Position numbers and translations under genes: made by a program. DNA of 32,550 bases from a virus. Location: positions 1 through 32,550 of the IMG/VR virus record IMGVR_UViG_3300047311_000389. One strand, given 5' to 3'. Below, one piece after another: positions 1 through 29,411 of the stretch (its first letter is position 1; each line of letters starts with the position of its first letter). The notes under the pieces are model-generated. The model made no database searches, was not told the origin of the DNA, and worked only from the letters and a program-made list of their open reading frames with translations.

Positions 1-144
1 CGGCTTCGCGATCACAGGGACGTCCGGGAAGAACTGCCCGGCCTCGTGGACCACGGTCCCGTCCCGGACCTGAAGCGCGCCGCAGTCGGGGCACGGTCCC
101 CGGAGGAAGCCCTCGTCCTTGCAGCGTCGGCAGCGAGCCTTCAT
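1..144 (-). CDS. Zinc-ribbon protein, 3' end cut by window edge
   Basis: Only the first 48 codons are visible; the stop lies beyond the left edge. The N-terminus begins MKARCRRCKDEGF and continues with a second CPDC pair, so two CxxC knuckles about 13 residues apart suggest a structural zinc ribbon. No catalytic motif is visible. The ATG overlaps the stop of the RlpA-like gene as ATGA, so it is the most distal gene seen in the leftward operon and probably depends on translational coupling. The function is unknown; similar tiny zinc ribbons are common in phage early regions. Confidence 0.75.
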   Translation of the reverse strand, partial: MKARCRRCKDEGFLRGPCPDCGALQVRDGTVVHEAGQFFPDVPVIAKP

Positions 145-728
145 CGGTAGGTCACTCGTACGTGGCACAGGCCCATGCCGGGGTCGCCGCAGATCGTGGC
201 GAAGTCGTAGATGGACAGGTCGGCCACCCGCCCCTGCCGCTGCATCGCCTTGCTCGGCCCGGCGTCGGTGCTGACGCGGGTGACGCAGGCCAGCGGGCCG
301 CAGATCGTTGCGCGTCTGTGAGGCCCGCTGGGGAGCGCCAGATAGCCAAGTGGCTCCGTGTGCCCCATGTGGGACGCGATGCCCGTCACGGTGCCTCTCG
401 TTGGCTGTGGCGCGATCCTGACGCTATGGACCACCTGCGGGATGGCCGGATGGACCGGAGGCCGCGCCGAGGACGCGCTCACCGGAGCCGGGATCTCCCA
501 GACCGACAGGACGGTCCCCATCGTCCTGCTCCATCCGGTCTGGGAAGCCCCCGGTCGGGGAGTCGTGGTCGGCGCGGGCCCAGAGCCAGCGAGCCATGTG
601 GTGAGAACGAAGCCGAGGCCGAAGCCGATCAGGAAGGCGAAGGCCAGCAGGGCGCAGCCCGCCCGGTAGCCGCTCACGGCCTCGTCGGGCCAGACGGCGG
701 TCAGGTGCTTGCCCTCGTAGCGGGTCAC
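141..728 (-). CDS. Membrane-anchored RlpA-like double-psi beta-barrel protein
   Basis: This 195-residue protein starts at a GTG that overlaps the VRR-NUC stop (GTGA); the same frame stays open upstream but runs antisense-like through the neighbour, so the internal GTG is preferred. Residues about 21-45 form a hydrophobic, Gly/Phe/Leu-rich membrane segment. A Pro/Thr/Ser-rich linker follows to about residue 110. The C-terminal 85 residues resemble the RlpA/expansin-type double-psi beta-barrel: GIAS near the start, VSTDAGP (Asp155), then RVADLS (Asp170) and a GxCHVRV ending. Cys143, 148, 180 and 188 could form two disulfides outside the membrane. RlpA relatives bind or cleave peptidoglycan glycan strands. 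An envelope role here (entry, lysis or exclusion) is inference. The fold call is moderate, the membrane anchor strong. Confidence 0.6.
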   Translation of the reverse strand: MTRYEGKHLTAVWPDEAVSGYRAGCALLAFAFLIGFGLGFVLTTWLAGSGPAPTTTPRPGASQTGWSRTMGTVLSVWEIPAPVSASSARPPVHPAIPQVVHSVRIAPQPTRGTVTGIASHMGHTEPLGYLALPSGPHRRATICGPLACVTRVSTDAGPSKAMQRQGRVADLSIYDFATICGDPGMGLCHVRVTYR

Positions 729-1828: not shown

Positions 1829-2812
1829 CTAGTGCGTGAGCACCGCTGGATCAAGGCCCGGTGTGGCGTCACGACACATCGGGCACTTCTTGAACAGGCT
1901 CGGGTCGGCGTGCCCGCCGCCTTCGTGGACGCGGATCTGGGTCCGCTCCAGCCGACGGGCGATGCTCGCCTCCTCGGACTCGACCCGCTCGACCGCCTTG
2001 ACGTCCTCGGTCTCGACCTTGCGGCGGAGGCTGTTGCCGGTGCCGAAGACGATCTCGTCCACGCCCGGGTTGTCGAGGCGGCTTGCGATCAGGCGCATCC
2101 GGTGGTGGACCGTCTCGGCGCTGTGGCGGCGGATCTGCTCCTCGATCTGACGCCACATCGCGCCCCACGGGTCGCGGAGCGCGTACGTCACGCCGGTCAG
2201 TTCCTCCAGCAGGGCCGCCGTCTCGGTGAAGTGCTCGGGAACGAGCGGGCCGGGCTGAAGCGCCTTGTCACTTCGCGAATCTAAGTCGTTCGTTTCTTTG
2301 ACGGAGAGGTGTGAATCTCCGGTGGGATTGGTCTTGGGTTTGGGGGTGCGTTTCTGCTGGCTTTCTGCTGCATCAGGTGCTGTAGCACGCGCTGCGGCAG
2401 TTGCTCGACCACCTGCTGAACCAGCCGCTGCCTTCTTTGCTCGCTCCTCAAGGATCTGCGCCTTCGTGGGCTGGTACTCGCAGTAGTCATGGACCTGATA
2501 CCCGAACGGGGCAAAGTCCCAGACCCCTGCGTCCGTCAGGAGTTTGATCACGAACGACGCGGTGAACGGCGACGGAATGAAGCCCTCCTCGTCCGGGATC
2601 TCGGGGCCGCCGTAGATCCGGTGCGCGCGTTCGTCGGCGTCGATGAACTCCAGCGAGATCAGGCCGCCCGCCACGCCCCACGGGATGAAGCCGTCGGTCA
2701 TGTTCCGGTTGCAGTACGCCAGACCAGCAAGCCAGAGCGCCTGACCGAGCGGCCCCACGCGAGCGAGTTTCGGGTGCTCGTCGAAGTGGTCGTCAATCCG
2801 TATCCACGGCAT
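1829..2812 (-). CDS. Phage replication initiator-like protein
   Basis: This 327-residue protein opens with MPWIRIDDHFDEHPK and a helical domain containing LGQALWLAGLAYCNR and DGFIP. I recognise this as the N-terminus of phage proteins usually annotated as replisome organisers or replication initiators (winged-helix, DnaD-like context). A low-complexity Ala/Lys/Pro linker (about 120-170) leads to a helical C-terminal region with WGAMWRQIEEQIRRH, ending in a CPMC zinc knuckle (Cys310, Cys313). Start: ATG 8 nt after GGAGGT. The gene sits in its own segment, flanked on both sides by hairpins whose loops match Shine-Dalgarno sequences. By analogy it would bind the phage origin and recruit the host helicase. 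Function is inferred from family resemblance and its recombination-gene neighbours. Confidence 0.6.
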   Translation of the reverse strand: MPWIRIDDHFDEHPKLARVGPLGQALWLAGLAYCNRNMTDGFIPWGVAGGLISLEFIDADERAHRIYGGPEIPDEEGFIPSPFTASFVIKLLTDAGVWDFAPFGYQVHDYCEYQPTKAQILEERAKKAAAGSAGGRATAAARATAPDAAESQQKRTPKPKTNPTGDSHLSVKETNDLDSRSDKALQPGPLVPEHFTETAALLEELTGVTYALRDPWGAMWRQIEEQIRRHSAETVHHRMRLIASRLDNPGVDEIVFGTGNSLRRKVETEDVKAVERVESEEASIARRLERTQIRVHEGGGHADPSLFKKCPMCRDATPGLDPAVLTH

Positions 2813-2819
2813 CAGAGAG

Positions 2820-2867
2820 ACCTCCTACACAGGTAGCGGGGGGCCGGGAGGTGTAGGCTCCCGGCCC
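2820..2867 (-). promoter_or_regulatory. Hairpin whose whole loop pairs with the replication gene Shine-Dalgarno
   Basis: On the minus-strand RNA, GGGCCGGGAG (2867-2858) and CUCCCGGCCC (2850-2841) form a perfect 10-bp stem. The 7-nt loop CCUACAC (2857-2851) is the exact reverse complement of GUGUAGG (2830-2824), which runs into the AGGAGGU Shine-Dalgarno of the gene starting at 2812. The linker is 10 nt. This is the geometry of an H-type pseudoknot that would hide the ribosome site, as in preQ1-I riboswitches, but I recognise no known class. Confidence 0.6.
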
Positions 2868-2898
2868 GCACGCCGCTTCGCGCCGTCACCGGCACAGA

Positions 2899-3252
2899 TC
2901 ACTCTACCACCGGCCAGTGCTCGGGGTACAGGGCGCGCAGTACGTCCCTCTCCCGCTGGCGGCGGGCCTTCGTGTCGATCCGCCACGCGCTGCCCCTGTG
3001 ATGCCACGGGCAGACGGTGATCAGGTGCGCCTCGTCGTCGAGCCGGGCGCCCCGGTCGTCGCGGACGTGGTCCAGTTCCATCTTGAAGACGTTGTCCCAG
3101 CGGATCAGCAGGCCGTGCTCGTCCCGGCAGGAGTCGGTCGCGGCGTCGGTGCGGAACCACATCCCGCTCGTCGCCACGCAGCCCCCATCCCGGGCGAGGA
3201 CGGTCTGGCGCAGGCGCGGCCAGCCGTCCTTCCGCCGGGTGATCAACTCCAC
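2899..3252 (-). CDS. HNH endonuclease
   Basis: This 117-residue protein shows an HNH layout: an N-terminal WPRLRQTVLARDGGCVA, a second Cys (DSCRDEHG), then KMELDHVRDDRGARLDDEAHLITVCPWHH spread over the catalytic region, with the LDHV His and the terminal CPWHH. The metal-bound His-Asn/Asp-His fold cuts DNA. The GTG start overlaps the recT stop by 10 nt, so translation is coupled. Free-standing phage HNH proteins act in packaging or as homing-type enzymes. Its place next to recT and away from any terminase favours a recombination or genome-processing role, but that is inference. Confidence 0.8.
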   Translation of the reverse strand: MELITRRKDGWPRLRQTVLARDGGCVATSGMWFRTDAATDSCRDEHGLLIRWDNVFKMELDHVRDDRGARLDDEAHLITVCPWHHRGSAWRIDTKARRQRERDVLRALYPEHWPVVE

Positions 3253-4238
3253 GTCTGGCCCGTGGCGTCACGGTGGTTGCCGTCGTGGCCGAGGGTCTGG
3301 ATGCACGCCCCGGGCTCGTAGCCGTCGGGCGTCAGCGCGCCGCAGCCTTCGCTGTCAGCCGCAGCGGCCTCCACGGCGCTCCCAGAGCCACGGAGAGGCG
3401 CTTCAGGCTCGTCGGCGTCTCCTCGTGCCAGCGCGTAGGCCGCCGCCGTTGCACGCGGTCCTGTGGCGGGCGGGATCTCCGTCGCCGTGCCCTCGATGAT
3501 GTCGGCCTGCTCGTCCGCCGTGACGGCGTGCGCGACCTGCGGCATCGTCTCCAGCGGGAGGCGCTTCAGGAGCCGTCGGAGGACCGTCTTGCGGGCCATC
3601 TCGCCAGCGAAGTCGTCCCACGGGCTGTCCTTGCCCTGCGCCACGGCCTGCGAGCGGCGGCGGACGACGTCCACGTCGGCCCACGCCATCCACTCGATGA
3701 CCTTCTCGCCGGTCGCCATCTCGACCCAGCCGTAGACGCCCCGGTAGTCGCCCCGGTCGCCGAGCAGTTCGCCATCGGACGACTTCTCGCCGAACAGGAA
3801 GGGCCGGTGGATGATCTGGGGGTCCGTGCCGAGGAGCAGGTCGAACTCGTCGGCCATGTAGACGACCTGCGCGTCCGTCCGCCGGATCTGGCCGCTGTTG
3901 CGGAGCAGTTTCAGCAGCCCCCGGTAGCCGGGCCGGAAGGTGGCGACACCCTTGTACGGGATGATCCAGCCCTCGCCCAGCAGGCCGGTCGGCGACAGGT
4001 TCATCGCCGCGCTCTCCCGGATCGCCTCGATGATGCTGATGACCGAGCACTCCTTGAGCACCCGCTGGTTCTGCGCCAGCGCGTGGAGCGCCACCGTCTT
4101 CCAGCGGTCGAAGTTCTCCGCCCCGAGGAGCGGCCCGAACTGGTCCACGCGCTGGTCCATCTCGCGGACGACCAGCGCCAGCGTCTCCCGCTCCTTGCCG
4201 CCCTGTGGCGTCACGGGCGGCGGTCCTGCCCTGTTCAC
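3243..4238 (-). CDS. recT: RecT-family single-strand annealing protein
   Basis: The central part of this 331-residue protein is a clear RecT match: ALAQNQRVLKECSVISIIEA, then AAMNLSPTG and GEGWIIPYKGVATFRPGYRGL, and later DFAGEMARKTVLRRLLKRLP. RecT anneals single strands exposed by a partner exonuclease, here the gene directly upstream (GTGA overlap). The C-terminal tail (about 240-331) is Ala-rich and ends with a Cys/His module (CGALTPDG, CIQTLGHDGNHRD) that looks like a small metal-binding appendix, not needed for the core fold. Together with the exonuclease it forms a Red/RecET-like module, active in the host cytoplasm. Confidence 0.9.
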   Translation of the reverse strand: MNRAGPPPVTPQGGKERETLALVVREMDQRVDQFGPLLGAENFDRWKTVALHALAQNQRVLKECSVISIIEAIRESAAMNLSPTGLLGEGWIIPYKGVATFRPGYRGLLKLLRNSGQIRRTDAQVVYMADEFDLLLGTDPQIIHRPFLFGEKSSDGELLGDRGDYRGVYGWVEMATGEKVIEWMAWADVDVVRRRSQAVAQGKDSPWDDFAGEMARKTVLRRLLKRLPLETMPQVAHAVTADEQADIIEGTATEIPPATGPRATAAAYALARGDADEPEAPLRGSGSAVEAAAADSEGCGALTPDGYEPGACIQTLGHDGNHRDATGQTWS

Positions 4239-5257
4239 TGCTTGAACCTCACGTCAATCCGCCGGTAGCCCGGCTCTGTGCTGGTGTACATGGACTCGGC
4301 GGCGTCCAGCGCCATCTGCGCCGACGCCAGAGACCGGACGGCCTCGTCGTCATCGCCCGGGGCGACGTGCTCCACGACGTCGCCGAGCGCGGCCCGGTAG
4401 ACCTCGGCGACCAACTGCCACGCGACCTTCACGCGGTCCTTCGTCTGCTTCCACGTCACCTTGCCCCACGACCCGGTGATGCCTGCGGCGTCTCCGATCA
4501 GGTCTTCGACCCGGTGCTCCAGCGTGGCGACGACGGCCTCCTGCGCCTTCAACTTCGCCCGCTCGTCCCGGAGCCGGAGGACGACCAGTTCGCGCTCCGG
4601 CGGCAGGGTCTTCAGGGTCTCGTCGTGCTCGGGCCAGCGGGACCGGACGACCCGCCGGGAGAACTCGTCGCCCTCCAGCGGCGGAGGATCTCGGCGCTCG
4701 ACCCGCTGCCAGAACTCGGCAGCCGCCTGACGCCACGTCGAGAGGAACGCCTCGTCCCGCTGGATCGGGTACGTCCTGAACTCCCGGAAGCCGAACAGGA
4801 CCGCGAGGTGACAGACCTTCGCGCTGGTCACGAGCATCTCGTGCTGCGCCTGAACCCAGTAGTGGACCGGGACGTCGTCGGTGCCGTCGTCGCCCCAGCC
4901 CCGGGAGTCGTTCGCCGTCTTGCACTCGACCAGCACGTCCGGGCTGCCGACGACGCGGTAGTCCAGATGGCAGACCAGCCACGGGTAGGCCGGGTGCCGG
5001 TGGTGCTGGTTGTCGGCCCGGACGCGCAGGCCGGTCCGGGCGAAGAACAGTTCGGCGACGACGTCTTCCAGCCGAAGGCCGAGCCACTGCGGGAGAGTCT
5101 GCCCCGAGACCTCCTCCTCCGCGATGGGCTCGACCTTCGACTGGTAGACGCTCAGGGGCGTCGCCCACGGCGACAGCCCCAGCACCCCGGCGGCGTCAGT
5201 TGCTCCGATCCCGGACTGGCGCTCCTTCAGGAACGCCGCGCGGTCAGCCGTCAGCAT
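4235..5257 (-). CDS. YqaJ-type viral recombinase exonuclease
   Basis: This 340-residue nuclease has the YqaJ layout: SGIGATDAAGVLGLSPWATP near the N-terminus, LRLEDVVAELF with the first acidic residue, then HLDYRVVGSPDVLVECKTAN giving the Asp and E-x-K of the PD-(D/E)xK centre, and a VQAQHEM helix. The C-terminal half contains a predicted helical region around residues 205-255. It would resect dsDNA ends for RecT, the next gene. The ATG at 5257 is chosen because it overlaps the 34-aa membrane peptide stop (ATGCTGA); the frame stays open 13 codons further to a GTG without a ribosome site. Confidence 0.88.
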   Translation of the reverse strand: MLTADRAAFLKERQSGIGATDAAGVLGLSPWATPLSVYQSKVEPIAEEEVSGQTLPQWLGLRLEDVVAELFFARTGLRVRADNQHHRHPAYPWLVCHLDYRVVGSPDVLVECKTANDSRGWGDDGTDDVPVHYWVQAQHEMLVTSAKVCHLAVLFGFREFRTYPIQRDEAFLSTWRQAAAEFWQRVERRDPPPLEGDEFSRRVVRSRWPEHDETLKTLPPERELVVLRLRDERAKLKAQEAVVATLEHRVEDLIGDAAGITGSWGKVTWKQTKDRVKVAWQLVAEVYRAALGDVVEHVAPGDDDEAVRSLASAQMALDAAESMYTSTEPGYRRIDVRFKQ

Positions 5258-5355
5258 GACACGGACCACGTGTAGCAGTCCGGGATCGACGTCCACGCGA
5301 TCAGCACCATGCCGACGGCGATCCCGACCAGCAGGTACCAGAGAGCCTTGCGCAT
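5251..5355 (-). CDS. 34-residue single-pass membrane peptide
   Basis: A good Shine-Dalgarno (GAGGAGG, 5 nt before ATG) precedes 34 codons. The product starts MRKALWYLLVGIAVGMVLIAW, one membrane helix of about 18 residues with positive charge at the N-terminus, followed by a short tail with two Cys. The stop overlaps the exonuclease start by 7 nt, and the start overlaps the previous stop (TGATG). A membrane peptide inside a recombination operon is odd. It could interfere with the host membrane, exclude other phages or inhibit a host nuclease, but nothing in the sequence decides this. Confidence 0.65.
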   Translation of the reverse strand: MRKALWYLLVGIAVGMVLIAWTSIPDCYTWSVSC

Positions 5356-5549: not shown

Positions 5550-5902
5550 CGCTCGCTCGCGGATCGCGTCTTGACGTGCGCCTTGCACACGTTCATCCGC
5601 CTGCCGTCTTGGTTCGTGATGACGAACTTCGCCCGGTGCTGGCACTGCCACGACGAGACCCGCTCGCCGTAGACGGTGGCCTGACAGTTGATCGCCGGGC
5701 CGGTGTACGGCACCGCCGCCTCGACCGCCGCCGCCTGACGCGCCTTGCGCTCCGCCTCGACCGCCTCCTGCGCCCGGCGGTTGGCCGACTGCCAGTCCCA
5801 CGTCACGACGTAGTTCTGGTCGGCCAGCCATGCGTCGATGCGGGCGAGGCCCATCTGCGAGACCCCCTCGGCTCGCAGGATCTCCGCGAACTCCTTGAAC
5901 AC
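5546..5902 (-). CDS. Early protein with C-terminal Cys/His zinc-binding module (118 aa)
   Basis: A GTG start follows CAGGAGGCA at good spacing and overlaps the previous stop region (TGAGTG). The N-terminal half (MFKEFAEILRAEGVSQMGL) is helical, and an Ala/Glu/Arg helix spans about 45-65. The C-terminal 45 residues carry NCQATVYGERVSSWQCQHRA and later MNVCKAHV: three Cys and two His in a pattern usable for a treble-clef or ribbon zinc site, common in phage proteins of unknown role. It belongs to the leftward early operon. No enzyme motif is visible. Confidence 0.65.
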   Translation of the reverse strand: MFKEFAEILRAEGVSQMGLARIDAWLADQNYVVTWDWQSANRRAQEAVEAERKARQAAAVEAAVPYTGPAINCQATVYGERVSSWQCQHRAKFVITNQDGRRMNVCKAHVKTRSASER

Positions 5903-29373: not shown

Positions 29374-29411
29374 GAAGCCCCGGCCTCTGGGGGGAGAAAG
29401 GCCGGGGCTTC
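29374..29411 (-). terminator. Strong hairpin after the capsid gene
   Basis: GAAGCCCCGGCCT (29374-29386) and AGGCCGGGGCTTC (29399-29411) are perfect 13-bp arms around a 12-nt loop, 20 nt after the capsid stop. It probably reduces read-through, giving more capsid than transferase mRNA, or protects the capsid mRNA end. On the minus RNA the loop is C-rich (CCCCCC) and could pair with GGGGG just before the next start codon. Confidence 0.7.

Follow-up and report, generated by a model that had tools for sequence, protein, structure and literature searches.

Adjacent Hairpins with Complementary Loops as a Putative Translational Lock over the Shine-Dalgarno Sequence in Phage Leader RNAs

The window analyzed in this study, that is, the whole 32,550-nt stretch of viral DNA supplied by a 32.5-kb IMG/VR contig, contains a replication gene whose leader RNA probably locks translation in cis by means of two neighboring hairpins whose 7-nt loops are complementary. 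Comparison with other phage leaders, the members being uncultivated-virus contigs, supported the assertion that the pairing of the upstream loop with the Shine-Dalgarno (SD) region is a real, selected translational structure, as far as sequence can tell. More tentatively, the element may represent an undescribed, ligand-free class of phage leader RNA, in which an SD-burying hairpin pair stands before homing endonuclease and initiator genes in many unrelated phages as a set of orthogonal locks. No paper describing such an element was found in the open-licence literature.

The Leader Element in the Window

The minus-strand leader RNA reads GGGCCGGGAG (2867–2858), CCUACAC (2857–2851) and CUCCCGGCCC (2850–2841), forming hairpin 1 (2841–2867) with a perfect 10-bp stem and a 7-nt loop, and continues 3' with CCCGCUACCU (2840–2831), GUGUAGG (2830–2824), AGGU (2823–2820), CUCUCUG and the AUG start codon at 2812. 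The original prediction had described this stem, a 10-nt linker (2840–2831) between the hairpin and the SD-side complement, and a loop that is the exact 7/7 reverse complement of GUGUAGG in the SD region of the gene at 2812, all of which were confirmed in the sequence. Absent from that prediction was a small hairpin on the SD side (hairpin 2; 2820–2834, minus strand), in which ACCU (2834–2831) pairs with AGGU (2823–2820) and GUGUAGG (2830–2824) is displayed as a 7-nt loop, the exact partner of loop 1. The entire SD sequence, AGGAGGU, falls inside hairpin 2, and the linker between the two hairpins is the 6-nt CCCGCU (2835–2840, minus strand), whose length and letters vary among members.

The leader folded better than its dinucleotide shuffles (z −2.7; equalled by 1 of 200). 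Hairpin 1 is one of the few perfect 10-bp hairpins in the window, which holds 20 hairpins with a stem of at least 8 bp versus 8–14 per shuffle. For the window, an alternative nested fold in which the SD is also paired was predicted to be 3.3 kcal/mol more favorable than the two hairpins without their kiss; the stacking energy of the loop-loop helix would be about −13 kcal/mol, penalties not yet included. The nested fold also paired the region of the stop codon at the upstream gene's end (2910–2896, minus RNA) with the SD and start of the downstream gene (2823–2810), and this predicted pairing could add translational coupling. A scan for promoters of the sigma-70-like type alone found no site at 2780–3300 of the window.

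The gene behind the element encodes a 327-aa replication initiation protein with an AUG start (1829–2812, minus strand; phrog_2447, E 7.9e-29), whose weak tblastn relatives are annotated as RepA-like replication initiators in Mycobacterium and Gordonia phages. Upstream lies a gene for a small, 117-aa HNH-like endonuclease (2899–3252, minus strand), assigned by a weak match to the HNH family phrog_333 (E 0.0013), with no Pfam match to its product; it ends about 31 nt 5' of hairpin 1. It is preceded by genes for a RecT-like annealing protein (3243–4238, minus strand; PF03837, E 6e-29) and a RecE-like/YqaJ exonuclease (4235–5296, minus strand; phrog_434, E 2e-68; PF09588), giving the gene order RecE, RecT, HNH-like gene and initiator. 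The element sits in an 86-nt gap, the sole real gap in this run. The region recurs in a near-identical 42-kb contig, where about 6.9 kb contain one difference; this contig is too close to be informative.

Recurrence of the Loop/SD Match

When the loops of 190 hairpin/SD pairs from the collected loci were re-paired with other SDs, a mean of 0.145 seven-letter matches was obtained in all. A 7-nt match in a single leader is thus about a one-in-a-thousand event, which alone is only modestly surprising and is insufficient after a screen by eye; it is the recurrence of the match elsewhere, with different letters, that places the window match beyond chance. This recurrence was not found among homologous genes. 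Four annotated phages with initiator homologues have leaders without a loop/SD match, and the element was absent from the 75 distinct viral leaders of homologous initiators, the window phage's own excepted, so that within this gene family it is limited to the window phage and the near-identical contig; conservation within the family was accordingly rejected. Because the homologous initiators were uninformative, the search was aimed at the device and not at the gene. An alignment of homologous leaders would miss such a class, as the element precedes non-homologous genes.

A scan for the exact letters found L030, in which an 11-bp hairpin with the loop CCUACA stands before GUGUAGGAGG and an HNH gene within a tRNA cluster, together with two further members, L009 and L020. 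The first scan that left the loop/SD match free used the pattern GGGAG-CCU(N3-4)-CUCCC with GGAGG 6–36 nt downstream, leaving free the remaining loop letters, the letters 5' of the SD and any second hairpin. Eight of the 30 collapsed hairpins (stem of at least 8 bp) showed a perfect loop/SD match, while shuffling the loops among the hits gave a mean of 0.37 perfect matches and a maximum of 4 in 20,000 shuffles. The eight loops were CCUACAC, CCUACA, CCUGAAU, CCUGAUU, CCUACUU, CCUUCA, CCUCAAC and CCUAUU, two of them previously known (the window and L030) and six new. A CCU just 5' of the SD-side complement, which the scan had not requested, was present in 7/8 perfect matches versus 0/20 non-matches, so that the SD's second AGG gains a partner for a second stem. 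The 20 hairpins that clearly do not match are of an ordinary kind, precede a mixture of genes and served as an internal control.

In the second scan, the second CCU was required, stem 1 was relaxed to GAG/CUC and NNNN was left free on either side. Perfect matches made up 17 of 36 distinct hits, or 12 of 29 after collapsing, versus 0.59 expected and a maximum of 5 in 20,000 shuffles. Twelve different NNNN sequences occurred among the perfect matches, and perfection went with the length of stem 1 (9/10 with at least 8 bp versus 3/19 otherwise; Fisher p 2e-4). These exact-pattern scans are confined to hairpins with a GAG/CUC stem end or a fixed loop. A looser scan of the collected loci added L484 and a second copy in L501, whereas reversed loops gave few matches. 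The second L501 copy has a different frame (loop ACUCCAU, SD hairpin GUCC-UAUGGAG-GGAC) and, like L009 with its AU-rich stems and L020, lies beyond the scanned one. L495 (rc 4038) carries a second hairpin with the loop UCCUUGG, whose complement CCAAGGA overlaps an SD; its linker start (GCCCGGCAC) resembles that of the first copy on the same contig, and it may be a duplicate that has diverged and acquired another loop.

Several candidates were set aside. L215, with a GU-rich stem, and L228 have a hairpin-like look that is probably due to chance. No member was recognized among 73 matches, many of them cyanobacterial repeats, in an exact-sequence scan of GTDB genomes, and the pattern with the match left free gave three hits, none complementary, in about 800 bacterial genomes. 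No DNA similarity of L009 or L501 to named phages was detected.

Covariation and Architecture of the Two Hairpins

The members were compared in a covariation alignment (A2) with a 16-row core. As its rows were mostly picked for their match, the alignment alone overstates the case, and the unselected counts (8/30 and 12/29) carry the weight. In the loop-loop helix of the 16 cores, the four variable pairs were 100% paired, with 3–4 pair types each and double changes at all four; the loops of the two hairpins thus covary across members. In stem 1, 94.5% of cells were paired, and each of the five free positions showed double changes. Hairpin 2 has an outer pair that was neither imposed nor selected; it was paired in 12/16 rows as GC, AU, CG or GU. 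The covariation score of the whole structure was 0.53, versus 0.13 when shuffled and at most 0.13 when the partners were slid. Covariation of the loop match, or its conservation in relatives, had been named with the original prediction as the result on which it would stand or fall: the comparison came out positive across unrelated phages with different loop letters, and negative in the leaders of homologous initiators, where the element is absent.

Across members, hairpin 1 has mostly 8–14 bp and a loop CCUNNNN, hairpin 2 has 3–8 bp in the form CCU-[N'N'N'N'AGG]-AGG, and the linker between them is 0 to about 20 nt long, with no letters conserved. The loop of hairpin 1 (6–8 nt in the definition of the class) pairs by reverse complementarity with a stretch that overlaps the SD, and in the window and usually in the other members the SD side forms a second hairpin (a CCU/AGG stem or similar) that displays this complement in its loop. 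The start codons called in perfect matches lay 4–9 nt 3' of AGGAGG. Folded without constraints, L401, L444, L499 and L490 had these two hairpins and nothing else as their minimum-free-energy structure, both loops being open; the window did not.

The loop was originally placed in an H-type pseudoknot with a linear SD. The loop/SD pairing stood, but given the CCU/AGG stem that flanks the SD-side loop in 7/8 perfect matches, two hairpins with kissing loops are a better description than a linear SD. This geometry resembles that of ColE1 RNAI/RNAII, which form a kissing complex with fully paired 7-nt loops, and in structural terms it would ease the steric problem of an H-type pseudoknot without an L1 nucleotide.

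Some members carry additional structure. L489 (about 4330–4400, plus strand) and L501 (rc, about 5820–5880) have a common motif directly 5' of hairpin 1, namely a hairpin with a loop around GGUUUAGCGrCC, followed by GGGCUAG, which may be a further conserved domain of a subgroup. L009 (+11475), L035 (+1490) and L512 (rc, about 1405) have in common (GG)GACAGC-(variable hairpin)-GUUUC 5' of the SD-masking structure, and L410, L504 and L512 have an extra outer helix around hairpin 1. The former motif or the outer helices could form an aptamer-like domain.

Genes Downstream of the Element

Most downstream genes encode homing-type nucleases of the HNH or endonuclease-VII kind, and three encode replication initiators. 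HNH or endonuclease-VII products were assigned by Pfam or PHROGs in L030, L401, L405, L412, L444, L463, L489, L495, L499, L501 and L503, whereas L445, L496 and the second copy in L501 are HNH-like, and L009 is GIY-YIG-like, by eye only. The replication initiators or helicase loaders (the window, L490 and L416) belong to different PHROG families. Other products are glycosyltransferase-like by eye (L504) or a membrane protein (L410), and the proteins downstream in L020, L484 and L512 have no assignment. The suggestion that the element times initiator synthesis specifically was not borne out, as the homologous leaders lack it and most other bearers are nucleases. Neither is it a universal feature of HNH genes: when 80 relatives of the L030 HNH gene were checked for it in their leaders, L030 alone had it, and it was absent from 10 HNH leaders of named cultured Streptomyces, Arthrobacter and Gordonia phages.

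A strong sigma-70-like promoter lies just upstream of the element in L499, and hairpin 1 can therefore lie close to where its own transcript begins. The stop codon of the upstream gene lies inside loop 1 in the L401 family, while elsewhere it is usually about 40–90 nt upstream; translational coupling through such a stop was thus rejected as a general feature. In L487 (rc 2744 onward), the SD of a perfect element is followed by an ORF that stops after about 10 codons, so that the gene would seem to be absent, broken or mis-sequenced. The contig of L512 also bears a GOLLD RNA and a tRNA cluster (94–530, minus strand).

Proposed Mechanism and Alternative Explanations

In the proposed mechanism, hairpin 1 would be transcribed first and fold. 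The emerging SD region would then form the weak hairpin 2, whose loop N'N'N'N'AGG would kiss the CCUNNNN of loop 1, bringing one AGG of the SD into the loop-loop helix and the other into stem 2. With both AGGs paired, the 30S subunit could not bind, and translation would stay low until the kiss opens; the kissing state would therefore be the off state. From the sequences we infer that the structure forms in the cell and represses translation, and that its purpose would be to restrict the amount of a protein that is harmful in excess, or to delay it, such as a homing nuclease or a replication initiator. Opening might occur by the hairpins spontaneously breathing apart, by a transcript starting inside hairpin 1, or by a phage protein; alternatively, the lock may simply set a low expression level.

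The main alternative is an ordinary GC-rich intergenic hairpin (a terminator, mRNA stabilizer or processing barrier) with a coincidental loop/SD match. Similar hairpins without a match do stand before many phage genes, as the 20/30 of the first scan illustrate, the leaders of homologous initiators have no match, and a nearly identical 11-bp stem lies 3' of the major capsid gene of Curtobacterium phage Olliecat (L399, 1201–1236), where its loop, CCUAGU, matches no SD and the hairpin was classed as ordinary and intergenic. However, the perfect matches of both scans occurred in many sequences and far above the shuffled level, they go together with hairpin 2 and a strong stem 1, and the window hairpin lacks the U-tract that follows an intrinsic terminator hairpin, the sequence past 2841 being CCCGCUACCUGUG. 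We therefore regard this explanation as unlikely. Elsewhere in the window, a 13-bp perfect GC-rich hairpin without a U-tract (29374–29411) between two minus-strand genes of the structural region is likely a terminator or processing hairpin.

A protein-dependent operator, in which repression or release would be set by a phage protein (the nuclease, the initiator or another) bound to the kissing complex, after the manner of gp32 on the T4 gene 32 pseudoknot, has precedents in the leader pseudoknot or hairpin operators of T4 (PMC3014915). It is nevertheless very unlikely here, since the downstream proteins are unrelated (HNH, endonuclease VII, initiators and glycosyltransferase-like) and the letters of loop and stem vary freely, making a shared sequence-specific binder improbable.

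The ligand-sensing riboswitch put forward originally, following the logic of preQ1-I, agrees with the pairing of a hairpin loop with the SD, and the longer outer helices of L410, L504 and L512 could hold an extra domain. The analysis spoke against it, and we consider it highly improbable: linker length, linker sequence and loop letters vary freely while pairing is kept, no unpaired position is conserved, and the regulated genes have no common metabolite pathway. Rfam gave no match at the element in 20 member loci, nor in the window at gathering thresholds or at E up to 10, in line with the initial impression that no known riboswitch class was recognizable. The freedom of the loop letters favors a self-contained lock over a pocket for a ligand or a shared protein that reads the sequence. 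A DNA-level inverted repeat, with the two 7-mers as a recognition site of a protein or nuclease such as the HNH enzyme, would suit the association with homing-type nucleases and the HNH-like gene upstream in the window, but is scarcely credible for repeats that form the loops of coding-strand hairpins, whose stems show compensatory changes, and that contain the SD, itself at a fixed distance from the start.

If the kissing-loop lock is correct, each copy would be orthogonal to the others, the free but matching loop letters providing a natural set of translation locks, and a phage or host RNA with one loop sequence could be a private key. The control of homing endonuclease and replication initiator levels in phages is known mainly from T4, and a device of about 45 nt, found by covariation before just those two kinds of genes, would offer a general and easily tested answer. 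It would also illustrate that an observation made by eye on a single sequence, here a loop that is an anti-SD, can reveal an RNA class.

Comparison with Known Systems

The preQ1-I riboswitch is an H-type pseudoknot in which a hairpin loop pairs with the downstream SD region. The element is alike in this pairing and differs in its 10-bp stem (in the window), its wholly paired 7-nt loop, the placement of the SD in a second hairpin and the absence of a ligand pocket: no Rfam covariance match was obtained, conserved pocket nucleotides and an A-rich tail were not seen, and linker and flanks are not conserved. In the cobalamin (corrinoid) riboswitch, an L5-L13 kiss of 3–5 bp stabilizes P13, promotes the RBS hairpin and turns translation off (PMC10653944). 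The element likewise has a loop-loop kiss that would stabilize an RBS hairpin, but its kiss has 6–7 bp, the SD lies inside the kissing loop, the loops covary freely and no aptamer is seen; Rfam found no cobalamin aptamer core in the window or the 20 member loci.

Among phage leaders, the T4 gene 32 pseudoknot also acts on the translation of a replication gene, but it lies 67 nt upstream of the start, leaves the SD unpaired and acts via the binding of gp32 (PMC3014915). The SAS/ESAS sites of cluster K mycobacteriophages are, like the element, inverted repeats just 5' of the SD and start in actinophages; they are copies of one repeated consensus at 11–19 sites per genome, with little hairpin support according to their authors (PMC3203893), whereas the element usually occurs once per contig with free loop letters. 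The seg43 gene of Aeromonas phage 25 has a stable hairpin directly before its homing-endonuclease SD, with a role given as undetermined (PMC2988022); its loop, GAUAAA, does not match the SD, and it was rejected as a member.

The closest systems are the T4-type homing endonucleases (I-TevI, I-TevII, I-TevIII, segB and Aeh1 mobE), in which a good SD is buried in RNA structure; a single structure pairs the SD directly, and a late promoter is so placed that late transcripts, without the 5' half of the structure, escape (PMC3014915, PMC2988022). In the window, no late promoter of this sort was identified, the scan having covered sigma-70-like sites at 2780–3300. L023 (+1228) and L035 (+1519) resemble this simple single-hairpin kind of I-TevI and mobE, a long hairpin before their homing-endonuclease-like genes pairing CCUACAC(G/A) directly with (C/U)GUGUAGG. 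The element shares with T4-type leaders the burial of the SD before phage homing endonuclease genes and the negative control of translation that this would impose. It differs in that two hairpins are joined via complementary loops, with the SD split between the loop-loop helix and stem 2 instead of being paired inside one hairpin, and in that initiator genes are also found behind it. Most likely the lock is a further form of the SD masking by hairpins that is known from T4 homing endonucleases.
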